From Pseudomonas lurida (GTDB lineage: Bacteria > Pseudomonadota > Gammaproteobacteria > Pseudomonadales > Pseudomonadaceae), in contig NZ_PDJB01000001.1 in the NCBI RefSeq assembly GCF_002563895.1, positions 3,765,501 through 3,829,500 of the forward strand: a stretch of 64,000 bases of DNA. Reading direction: 5' to 3'. Under the pieces are notes generated by a model, which saw only the letters and a list, made by a program, of their open reading frames with translations, searched no databases and had not been told where the DNA came from. A program made the translations under genes and the position numbers. Shown one piece after another: positions 43,917 to 62,726 of the stretch; the first letter of the stretch is position 1; every line of letters begins with the position of its first letter.

Positions 43917-44440
43917 ATGACTAAGCACATTATTGTTATCGGCGGCGAGTCCACCGAAGACATGCAGCGTATGACACGTATCGATAAACACATCGTCGCG
44001 TCATCAGGCAAAACTCACCCTACTGTGCTCTACATCTCCACCGCCAATGGCGATGACCGAATCAAGATGTCCGATTTCACCGACAAATATGAAAGCGCTG
44101 GCTGCCGTGTAACCACGCTGGCATTTTTCATTTCACCCTTCCCCACCGCCAATCATGTTTCATCACTCTTTGAGCAAGCCGACATTATTTACGTACCAGC
44201 TTGCTGCCAGGAGCACTGTGTCCGCATTTCAGCTCAGAAGCAGGAAGGGAAACGTCGTTTGTCGAGCTTGTTCAGCGTGAGGGGATACGGCCCGCCTACG
44301 CAGTCGATGATGGCGTCGCTTTGCATTTCAAGGACGGCAAGTACCACGAGACGATCTATAACGACGCCGCTAGTAACGCCTATAAAGTCAGTACAAGGCC
44401 CCCCTACCTAGCACAGGTATTGCAAACTTCAGGTGGGTAA
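43917..44440 (+). pseudogene. Peptidase E (S51 family) remnant with central deletion and frameshift
   Basis: The first 92 codons (MTKHIIVIGGES to ADIIYV) match the N-terminal third of dipeptidase E. The C-terminal part appears in the next frame from about 44201 (LLPGALCPHFSSE, then RPAYAVDDGVALHFKDGK). About 75 residues between them are missing, including the GxSAGA segment with the nucleophile Ser. The downstream frame ends at 44440. The gene cannot make an active enzyme. A single deletion event with a shifted junction near 44200 explains the whole picture. Confidence 0.85.
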
Positions 44441-44459
44441 ACGCAGCAAGGAAATTTCC

Positions 44460-44479
44460 GACAACGTTTTAGGGTTGTC
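44460..44479 (+). other. Short hairpin after the peptidase E remnant
   Basis: GACAAC pairs with GTTGTC around an 8-base loop. There is no T-run, so termination is uncertain. It may belong to the structured leader that follows. Confidence 0.35.
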
Positions 44480-44508
44480 GCTCGGAAGATCGCTGCCTAA
44501 TCCTCGGT

Positions 44509-44741
44509 GGTCGCTGCAAATTGAGCGACCGGGTTTCGCAGCCCGGTTAAACTCTAGACGCACAGCGTCCACCTCAAGATAGCGGGCGCTTTTTTATGCC
44601 TGATGTTATGGCGGCTGTGCGCGGGATACCTTCGGGTATGCCGGGTGCCTAGAGTCCCGGTCTGCGAACCTGCGCACAGCTGCCACCCGGGTATCGTTTC
44701 GCAGCGATGGGTGGTAGCTCCAATACTCTAGGAGCTTCGTC
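44509..44741 (+). promoter_or_regulatory. Structured 5' leader RNA with sequestered ribosome binding site
   Basis: Several stems are visible. They are GGTCGCT/AGCGACC (44509-44530), CCGGG/CCCGG (44529-44546) and a 17-pair outer stem (44609-44625 with 44669-44685, two G-U pairs). The outer stem encloses a UUCG-capped hairpin (44626-44639) and a CCGGG/CCCGG hairpin (44641-44660), making a multi-branch element. CCACCC/GGGTGG (44683-44714) competes with the foot of the outer stem by three bases. AGCTCC/GGAGCT (44716-44736) buries the GGAG ribosome binding site. A T-run at 44590-44595 may mark an internal termination point. The whole leader precedes a small DUF6124-like gene. Confidence 0.7.
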
Positions 44742-45077
44742 ATGATCAAAGACAGTCCGAAACCGCCGTCAGACTCAGCCGCGTTTCACACTGCGGCTCA
44801 TCGAGCAATTAACCACTATCTGAACCCACCTGAGAAACCAGAGCCTTCTACTGAGGACCATAGTTTATTTACCGTACGCGAAGGATTAGACGTCGAGACG
44901 CTGCTGGTCAACGCGTCGGAGGATCTTGCCTCGGTTCAAGCGCTGGCAAGCCATTTGGCTTTTGAGATCGACGGCAATCCTCGCAGCGTGGCCTTGGGAA
45001 TGTGTCGGATGCTGGAGGGGATCCAGCTAATGGTGGATAAAACACTAAGCCTCAAAGACCACCCAACTCACACATAA
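44742..45077 (+). CDS. DUF6124/DUF3077-like small protein
   Basis: A 111-residue soluble protein with a proline-rich, probably disordered N-terminal third (NPPEKPEPSTED). A helical C-terminal part follows: TLLVNASEDLASVQALASHLAFEIDG and RSVALGMCRMLEGIQLMVDKTL. It resembles a Pseudomonas family I know as DUF6124 or DUF3077, with unknown function; the name is from memory. The ATG lies seven bases after GGAG, which is locked in a hairpin. Regulation at the translation level is therefore likely. Confidence 0.8.
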   Translation: MIKDSPKPPSDSAAFHTAAHRAINHYLNPPEKPEPSTEDHSLFTVREGLDVETLLVNASEDLASVQALASHLAFEIDGNPRSVALGMCRMLEGIQLMVDKTLSLKDHPTHT

Positions 45078-45121
45078 ATCTGAAACCGAAGAGTTCGCAA
45101 AGTGGGCACGGTAAAAACTGG

Positions 45122-45206
45122 GGGAGCTGGCTTGCCTGCGATTGCGGTGGGTTAGTCAACATTTCCGGTGACTGACACGCCGTCATCGCAGGCAAGCCAG
45201 CTCCCA
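45122..45206. repeat. REP inverted pair
   Basis: GGGAGCTGGCTTGCCTGCGAT at 45122-45142 faces its exact complement at 45185-45205. Confidence 0.88.
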
Positions 45207-45240
45207 CACTGGACCGAGTGAGCCGTTAAAACGGTGTGCA

Positions 45241-62058: not shown

Positions 62059-62726
62059 AAACACCCTCCTTTGTGGGAGCGATAGCCACAGGTTGCTACA
62101 GAACGCTGTAGCAACCCCGGTAACCACGATGCGAAGCGAGCCGCTTTTGATCTTGATCTTGATCGTGCTTTTGATCTCAGGCGCCCCATCAAACACGCTG
62201 GCCGGAATTCGACAGGGATTTGGGGGGTAAACCGGCAGGGATGCCGGTTTAGCCGCCCCGCGCCATGGAGGGCGCGTGGCGGCGGCCCCCCAAATCACTG
62301 TCGGATTACGGGCACACCGAGCGTGAGCGAGGTGCCGAGTGTTGGGGCAAGAGCCTTTTGGTTACTTTGGGGCTCTTTTCCAAAGTGACCCGCCGTCAGG
62401 GCGGAACCCATAGCAGCCGTGACCTAAATAACGGATATGTACCCGGTCTGATCCGACATCCAGGCCGGCTGTCAGGCCGCCTTCGCGGGCAAGCCCGCTC
62501 CCACATTTTTGGATCGTGGGGTGACAGTTAGATTGCCGTCGGCTGTCAGACCGCTTTCGCGAGCAAGCCCACTCCCACATTTTTGGATCGCGGGGTGACA
62601 GGGAGATAGTGGTTGGCTGTCGGCCCGGCTTCGCGGACAAGCCCGCTCCTACCGTCGAGCGTCATATTGTTGAAACCTGCCTGACTTATTCTCGTCGCAC
62701 TCCCTTTGGCTTGAGAAGGTGCCAGC
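62059..62726. repeat. Repeat-rich intergenic region
   Basis: About 670 bases with no credible gene. A perfect 11-pair hairpin GGTTGCTACAG with loop AACG lies at 62091-62116. The section around 62270-62410 (GCGAGGTGCCGAGTGTTGGGGC, then TTTTGGTTACTTTGGGGC and CCAAAGTGACCCGCC) is a dispersed element I recall from many Pseudomonas genomes. A tandem array of three REP half-units with about 75-base spacing follows at 62458-62653. Confidence 0.75.
62458..62653. repeat. Tandem array of single REP units
   Basis: Three same-orientation copies of a TTCGCGGGCAAGCCCGCTCC core occur at about 62481, 62555 and 62630. They are separated by a repeated linker with ATTTTTGGATCG and GGGGTGACAG. The middle copy reads GAGCAAGCCCACTCC and the last GGACAAGCCCGCTCC. 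Unlike the other REPs in the window they are not in inverted pairs. Confidence 0.8.

Follow-up and report, generated by a model that had tools for sequence, protein, structure and literature searches.

A chromosomal C4 antisense RNA in the leader of a DUF6124 gene of Pseudomonas lurida and its self-matched relatives

The leader of a small DUF6124 gene on the chromosome of Pseudomonas lurida contains a C4 antisense RNA and is very probably a domesticated module of the phage type, by which translation of the adjoining gene would be repressed in a self-targeted manner and released again by two upstream sites, a1 and b1. The RNA belongs to a known family; what is new is its multiplication into self-targeted chromosomal switches for DUF6124. 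C4 RNAs are recorded for Proteobacteria and phages in Weinberg 2010 (PMC2864571), and the C4 RNA of phages P1 and P7 binds ant mRNA around the ribosome site, according to a review (PMC12197685). Among open-licence papers, none on C4 before DUF6124, or on chromosomal C4, in Pseudomonas was apparent; the name DUF6124 occurs in no paper of the open-licence literature searched, and that of DUF3077 once, in one paper.

Results

C4 antisense RNA in the leader

The DNA analyzed (the window) is a stretch of 64,000 nt from Pseudomonas lurida (GCF_002563895.1, contig NZ_PDJB01000001.1, positions 3,765,501-3,829,500 of the forward strand); coordinates below are those of the window. An Rfam covariance scan of the entire window returned two matches, C4 among them. 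The C4 model (RF01695) aligns over its full length (1-87 of 87) at 44604-44690 on the + strand, and the score of 82.4 bits (E 1.2e-14) passes the gathering threshold of 45. A sequence-only reading of this leader had known no established family name for it, while granting that an Rfam match would make the RNA a known one. The match supplies the name by a wide margin and rules out a new RNA family. A TwoAYGGAY RNA match (RF01731, 57.5 bits against 43) lies at 62194-62320 (+).

The C4 consensus structure agrees with the 17-pair stem (44609-44625/44669-44685) that the same reading had drawn around two hairpins, one carrying a UUCG loop (hairpin 44626-44639, loop 44631-44634) and the other lying at 44640-44661. 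The minimum-energy fold of 44604-44690 (-50.0 kcal/mol, z -5.34, none of 200 shuffles as good) has the same architecture, with a few additional pairs in the second hairpin. The entire leader (44509-44741) is also unusually stable (z -4.95, again none of 200 shuffles as good). In its minimum-energy fold, a1 and b1 pair with segments a′ and b′ of C4 and displace the 17-bp stem, which gives the leader two alternative folds or more. Across 113 C4 loci, in an alignment based on sequence, the 17-bp stem and its two hairpins covary, with two-sided changes in 19 of 27 pairs and 97.0% of counted cells paired, in keeping with the earlier view of the leader as a functional structured RNA.

That reading had also placed the 3′ foot of the stem in competition with a downstream hairpin. 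The pairing is possible as described, between GCTGCCACCC (44679-44688) and GGGTGGTAGC (44709-44718, +), with one G-U pair, and is partly conserved, exceeding the 95th percentile of shuffled targets in 71 of the 113 loci. The preference for the own over other targets is modest (score 18.9, compared to 17.2 on average after permutation; z 7.8). Such a pairing could hold an unprocessed precursor back from folding.

Layout of the unit

Named after phage P1, the parts of the unit follow one another on the + strand. A putative promoter (44475-44503) is read as TTGTCG (44475-44480), a 17-nt spacer and TAATCC (44498-44503). Most orthologous loci compared have TAATCT in the -10-like place and a few differ; the -35-like hexamer was seen, among those compared, only in orthologues that lack C4, and is not identical in all of these. 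A hairpin, GGTCGCT...AGCGACC (44509-44530), folds near the likely transcript start and is part of a c4-a1b1 match (RF03163, 44497-44549) scoring 46.0 bits, below the gathering score of 46.7; the sites themselves are present. Site a1 (TTCGCAG, 44535-44541) is the exact complement of a′, and b1 (ACTCTAG, 44551-44557) that of seven letters of b′. An intrinsic terminator, AGCGTCC-N13-GGGCGCT-TTTTT (44564-44595), separates them from C4. It is spanned by an isrK-like match (RF01394, 44510-44595) of 41.4 bits, below the gathering score of 50; both sub-threshold matches come from a scan of 44400-44800. Similar terminators occur in 44 of the 113 loci, against a mean of 3.25 and a maximum of 7 in 20 mononucleotide shuffles.

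Within C4, as in P1, b′ (CCTAGAGT, 44648-44655) occupies a hairpin loop and is complementary to b2 and b1, while a′ (CTGCGAA, 44662-44668) lies in the junction and is complementary to a1 and a2. Site a2 (TTCGCAG, 44698-44704) stands directly 3′ of C4. Beyond the foot competitor follows b2 (ACTCTAGG, 44725-44732), overlapping the Shine-Dalgarno sequence AGGAG (44730-44734). The gene of 111 codons starts at 44742 (44742-45077) and had been recognized as DUF6124-like, an assignment that the Pfam match agrees with (PF19619, 85.8 bits, cut-off 27). The next gene is cysS (cysteinyl-tRNA synthetase), on the opposite strand. The layout of P1, from promoter-like hexamers through a1/b1, intrinsic terminator, C4 and a2/b2 to the gene, is present here. 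A P1-type immI operon, with icd-ant genes behind C4, was not found, the gene being PF19619 followed by cysS; immI denotes the C4 region of P1.

The surroundings hold two further features. A peptidase S51-like gene at 43917-44440 (+) is seemingly broken, its N-terminal part (43917-44411) giving a Pfam match and its C-terminal part lying, by eye, apparently in a different frame (ORF 44201-44440). On the 3′ side of the DUF6124 gene, 45120-45208 form a long imperfect palindrome, GGGAGCTGGCTTGCCTGCGAT ... ATCGCAGGCAAGCCAGCTCCC, which presumably resembles the REP elements of Pseudomonas.

Recognition segments match their own targets

The comparison was made on 113 non-identical C4 loci, consisting of six from the window's genome (G000), high-scoring matches from elsewhere and the C4s of G049, a complete genome with 55 of them. 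By entry, these are 6 from G000, 28 of L012-L040, 54 of L041-L095 and 25 of L096-L120. Entries L007-L011 (repeats of L001-L006; L010 has no C4) and 4 of 117 entries that duplicated another in C4 and flank were excluded before counting, and two weak G049 C4s that nhmmer did not find (L092, L094) were added by hand.

In this set, whose members are biased to high-scoring matches and not independent (orthologues share keys, that is, recognition letters), a′ pairs at 7/7 positions with its own a2 in 102 of 113 loci, compared to 451 of 12354 combinations of different keys. The 44 distinct a′/a2 combinations include all four Watson-Crick types at six of seven positions. Segment b′ pairs at 7/8 positions or better with the ribosome-site region, b2, in 95 of 113 own combinations and 1221 of 12606 with different keys. 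With a′ and b′ combined, the own target is the best or tied in 81 of the 113 loci. The start codon lies a median of 53 nt 3′ of C4. Judging from these counts, the recognition letters have diverged among loci and their complementarity has been maintained.

The most demanding case is a single genome with many copies. All 55 hairpin-loop segments of G049 differ from one another, and its junction segments are of 44 kinds. Using both segments, no foreign target outscores the own one for 46 of the 55 C4s, and for 42 the own target is the sole best; in an earlier subset of 54 loci (one G049 locus being kept under L033) it is best or tied for 45. Each segment alone discriminates less in that subset, with the own site best among different-key targets in 34 of 54 loci for a′ against a2, 31 of 54 for b′ against b2 and 11 of 54 for b′ against b1. 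Duplex energies are less specific, too: they rank the own target first in 33 of 54, and the median gap to the best foreign target is 0.8 kcal/mol.

The upstream sites also match their own C4, with permutation z values of 25.1 (a1) and 20.4 (b1) over the 113 loci, in windows that are partly post hoc, as they were set from earlier wide-window hits after a first placement elsewhere had given no signal. The wide-window test put own pairing above the permuted means for all four sites. Complementarity of a′ and b′ to the downstream a2/b2 and the upstream a1/b1 is thus found in the window and in its relatives.

The six C4s of the window's genome carry six different keys. Searched genome-wide as one exact composite pattern, the window's key sites are found on the forward strand only at a1b1 and a2b2, and in reverse only in C4 itself. 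Since the same pattern read backwards matched this genome seven times by chance (3 and 4 matches), the absence of other targets refers to this one exact pattern only. Phage P1 (AF234172) served as positive control: its annotated a1 and a2 complement the C4 junction exactly, and b2 the hairpin loop, b1 is not an exact complement, and a2 then b2 lie 3′ of C4 in the same order as here.

Distribution

Comparable leaders before related genes had been expected in other fluorescent pseudomonads, and were found. Six C4s and five DUF6124 genes are present in the window's genome, a single contig of 6.31 Mb. In a survey of 59 Pseudomonas genomes including this one, C4 is present in 54 (53 above the cut-off) and DUF6124 in 47, totalling 992 and 684 copies, respectively, in counts that may miss weak matches, the first filters of the surveys being loose. 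The median is 14 C4s per genome and the maximum 54 (55 when the search was repeated on G049). Copy numbers of C4 and DUF6124 correlate (Spearman 0.88). A search of 143 genomes across the class, that of the window among them, found DUF6124 in no genome but this one. C4 occurred in six, the five besides the window's having one to three copies each.

Association was scored in four genomes, the window's and three picked for their richness in C4 (G019, G036, G049). There, 106 of 144 C4s are followed on their own strand by a DUF6124 domain whose start is no more than 600 nt away. Conversely, 108 of 127 DUF6124 genes are preceded by a C4 at up to 600 nt, and no opposite-strand pair occurs within this distance. 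The remaining 19 genes have no C4 within 600 nt; 18 of them were inspected, in 17 loci. In twelve loci, each with a single gene, no convincing C4 could be made out over the 3.2-4.2 kb retrieved, and the other six genes, in five loci, lie near a C4, mostly as additional copies behind it. Tandem or clustered C4-DUF6124 units at L067 (G049) and at G019:C1:1820921-1827285 suggest spread by local duplication.

Outside chromosomes, no DUF6124 relative was found in plasmids, nor in viral contigs, where the query was one protein and so only close relatives would be detected. A phage collection contains one, its record deriving from a strain of P. fluorescens.

Proteins encoded behind C4

With classes assigned by profiles built here, whose own members match by construction, the genes behind the 113 C4s are DUF6124 in 62 loci, DUF3077 in 15, a third small family in 11, Bro-N in 8 and none of these in 17; the corresponding figures for the 54 G049 loci are 35, 4, 9, 3 and 3. 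Thirteen of the 17 unassigned loci have, by eye, a short first ORF like that of L001 and L002, where it is followed by ORFs that align with DUF3077; the one in L002 has no Pfam, PHROG or NCBIfam match. DUF6124 and DUF3077 (PF11275) are homologous according to hhalign run on two alignments built here (probability 95.9, E 6e-9). DUF3077 is also, we assume, similar to Icd. The third family, aligned from nine loci (L027, L053, L050, L054, L057, L082, L091, L089, L090), has no Pfam match in four members and no PHROG, PADLOC or NCBIfam match in one member. A relationship of this family (A3) to DUF6124 or DUF3077 was considered and found unsupported (hhalign probability 0.3 and 1.3).

The AlphaFold model of the window's DUF6124 protein has helices at residues 12-27, 51-75 and 79-106 (mean pLDDT 76.8, pTM 0.48), and neither PDB nor the viral models contain a match to it at E <= 0.001; as a guide to function it is uninformative. 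The protein matches PF19619 only in Pfam and gave no PHROG match, so that neither its sequence nor its fold yielded a link to a recognized antirepressor family. One DUF3077 protein has a match to a phage protein family of uncharacterised role, and the one Bro-N protein examined matches phage antirepressor families. A known anti-phage defence system was rejected as an identity for these proteins, PADLOC-DB yielding no match to E 0.1 for the window's DUF6124, one DUF3077, one Bro-N and one third-family protein.

A P(N/D)P(P/S) motif lies within the first 16 residues of 58 of the 62 DUF6124 ORFs, and of one Bro-N (L074) and one third-family protein (L089). The sharing of this motif by three protein types behind C4 looks as if the region from C4 to the start of the gene had moved as a cassette. 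Three Pseudomonas phage records show, by eye, C4 with complementary a2/b2 before short first ORFs. Together with the phage-family match of DUF3077 and the antirepressor match of Bro-N, these C4-bearing records support a phage or satellite origin of the module, C4 having later become attached directly to DUF6124; the direction of this change is the part that we infer.

Some neighbours hint at a function. In G000, G019, G036 and G049, one C4-less DUF6124 gene each is divergent from a gene for a HTH/S24-type repressor (a call tested in Pfam for L010 and L169, and made by similarity to the first for L173 and L176), and in phage record EU982300 (DVM-2008) the C4-DUF6124 unit adjoins prtR. These neighbours and the tie of C4 to antirepressors make an antirepressor-like role of DUF6124 a reasonable guess, with the caveat that the four cases may be copies of a single locus, with one prophage as the fifth.

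Stability and decay at the cysS locus

A scan of named genomes found 44 relatives of the window's protein. Eighteen have cysS in the fetched flank, the unit adjoining this gene in many species, and 14 of the 18 have C4. The a′ letters of these cysS-linked C4s are identical to the window's and the b′ letters identical or nearly so. P. orientalis (L125), P. salomonii (L129) and P. extremorientalis (L140) lack the terminator, C4 and a2 and retain a1, b1 and b2 (b2 differing by one letter in the latter two), so that repression would not be indispensable in these species. The gene is intact in L125 and L129, and is broken, truncated or start-less in 5 of the 18 copies (L123, L136, L137, L140, L157).

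The median dN/dS of DUF6124 is 0.16 (median dS 0.88) over 105 pairs from 15 intact orthologues, which include the window's and one from a short contig without cysS (L135); between the C4-less copies L125 and L129 it is 0.14. These ratios indicate that the protein is under purifying selection. Seen beside the intact genes that have lost C4, this argues that the protein matters, that C4 can be lost, and that the protein is not toxic enough to require it. L125, L129 and L140 are natural C4-less alleles, ready comparisons for derepression.

Discussion

The C4 fold, the kept complementarity, the position at the ribosome site, the preference for the own target and the evolutionary maintenance are all visible in the sequences compared. 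C4 most likely occludes the ribosome site of the small gene that follows it; transcription, processing, repression and relief by a1/b1 are put forward as a model. One promoter would give a short terminated RNA carrying a1 and b1 and, by read-through, a longer RNA with C4, a2, b2 and the DUF6124 gene. C4, which by the standard of its family would be processed by RNase P to about 77 nt, would display a′ and b′ for pairing with a2 and b2 and, because b2 contains the Shine-Dalgarno sequence, this pairing would block DUF6124 translation. The upstream a1/b1 RNA would then pair with the same a′ and b′ and relieve the block, by analogy with IsrK in Gifsy-1. The switch would then probably serve to hold back a small helical protein, a homologue of DUF3077, until the arrival of a signal.

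The unit shares with the P1 C4 (RF01695; AF234172) its fold, the places of a′ and b′, the order a1-b1-C4-a2-b2-start and the nearness of b2 to the start codon. However, P1 C4 controls icd-ant on a phage, and here a single DUF6124 gene is found on the chromosome beside cysS; the search for an intrinsic terminator covered the Pseudomonas locus, where one lies between a1b1 and C4. The proposed short terminated upstream RNA and blocked read-through mRNA, and the sub-threshold isrK-like match, recall IsrK-orf45-anrP of the Salmonella prophage Gifsy-1 (RF01394), where, in the available text of PMC4825925, the short RNA acts in trans to free and activate the downstream mRNA of a predicted antirepressor. 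Activation by the sRNA was measured in that prophage, whereas in Pseudomonas this step is a proposal. The available part of a study of Acinetobacter baumannii (PMC5320573) describes Group 1, 21 similar chromosomal sRNAs with mostly C4 features, a variable loop and apparent processing. No adjacent cognate site is described there for each copy; the Pseudomonas copies were compared with their neighbouring target and gene. DUF3077 (PF11275), homologous to DUF6124 and also found behind C4 (15 of 113 loci), is a separate Pfam family.

Other explanations were weighed against the self-targeted module. The leader might act in cis, as an attenuator or riboswitch in which a signal toggles the C4 stem against the downstream hairpin without antisense action. 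The competitor of the stem's 3′ foot, present in 71 of 113 loci, and the ability of a1/b1 to displace the stem in the whole-leader fold would suit it, but the letters that change fast are those complementary to a2/b2, they change together, and the P1 C4, of the same layout, is annotated as an antisense RNA; we regard this as very unlikely. A riboswitch-like reading of the leader is unsupported for the same reason, as the fast-changing, co-varying letters complement the gene's own ribosome-site region. It is just as improbable that C4 is a trans-acting sRNA with its main targets elsewhere, as proposed for the Acinetobacter C4-like sRNAs, whose 21 copies vary in their loop (PMC5320573, in the part available). 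Against this, nearly every key has an adjacent partner (a2 in 102 of 113 loci), and the window's key, as an exact pattern, recurs only at its own a1b1, a2b2 and C4.

A small protein next to an antisense RNA, in many different copies, also calls to mind a type I toxin-antitoxin pair, with C4 silencing a toxic product and being kept by addiction. Such a pair is hard to reconcile with P. orientalis and P. salomonii, where C4 is lost and the gene intact (mutual dN/dS 0.14), or with the 19 of 127 DUF6124 genes of four genomes that have no C4 within 600 nt, including the 12 inspected loci without a convincing one, and appears quite unlikely. That the unit is a functionless, decaying prophage remnant, as the C4s of phage records, the phage-family match of DUF3077 and the 5 of 18 broken or truncated cysS-linked copies might imply, is very unlikely given the dN/dS of 0.16, the stem covariation, the conservation of keys in orthologues and the joint rise of both parts in copy number (Spearman 0.88, 59 genomes).

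A wider version of the self-targeted module can be put forward as a possibility that we consider rather unlikely: a large set of mostly self-matched locks, up to about 50 per genome, many of them on DUF6124/DUF3077-type proteins that would be antirepressor-like partners of S24 repressors, coupling host signals to prophage or tailocin control. The partnership is suggested by the C4-less DUF6124 genes divergent from S24-type repressors and by the unit adjoining prtR.

C4 is familiar chiefly as a device of phage immunity; here it is a stable part of a core locus of the chromosome. Some genomes contain dozens of copies whose recognition letters have diverged, most of them matched to their own gene. 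A single genome can carry some 50 antisense keys that differ from one another (55 in G049), a natural collection suited to studying the evolution of RNA-RNA specificity, the avoidance of cross-talk and the reasons for which bacteria retain phage regulators. These copies also provide a regulatory and evolutionary frame for DUF6124.
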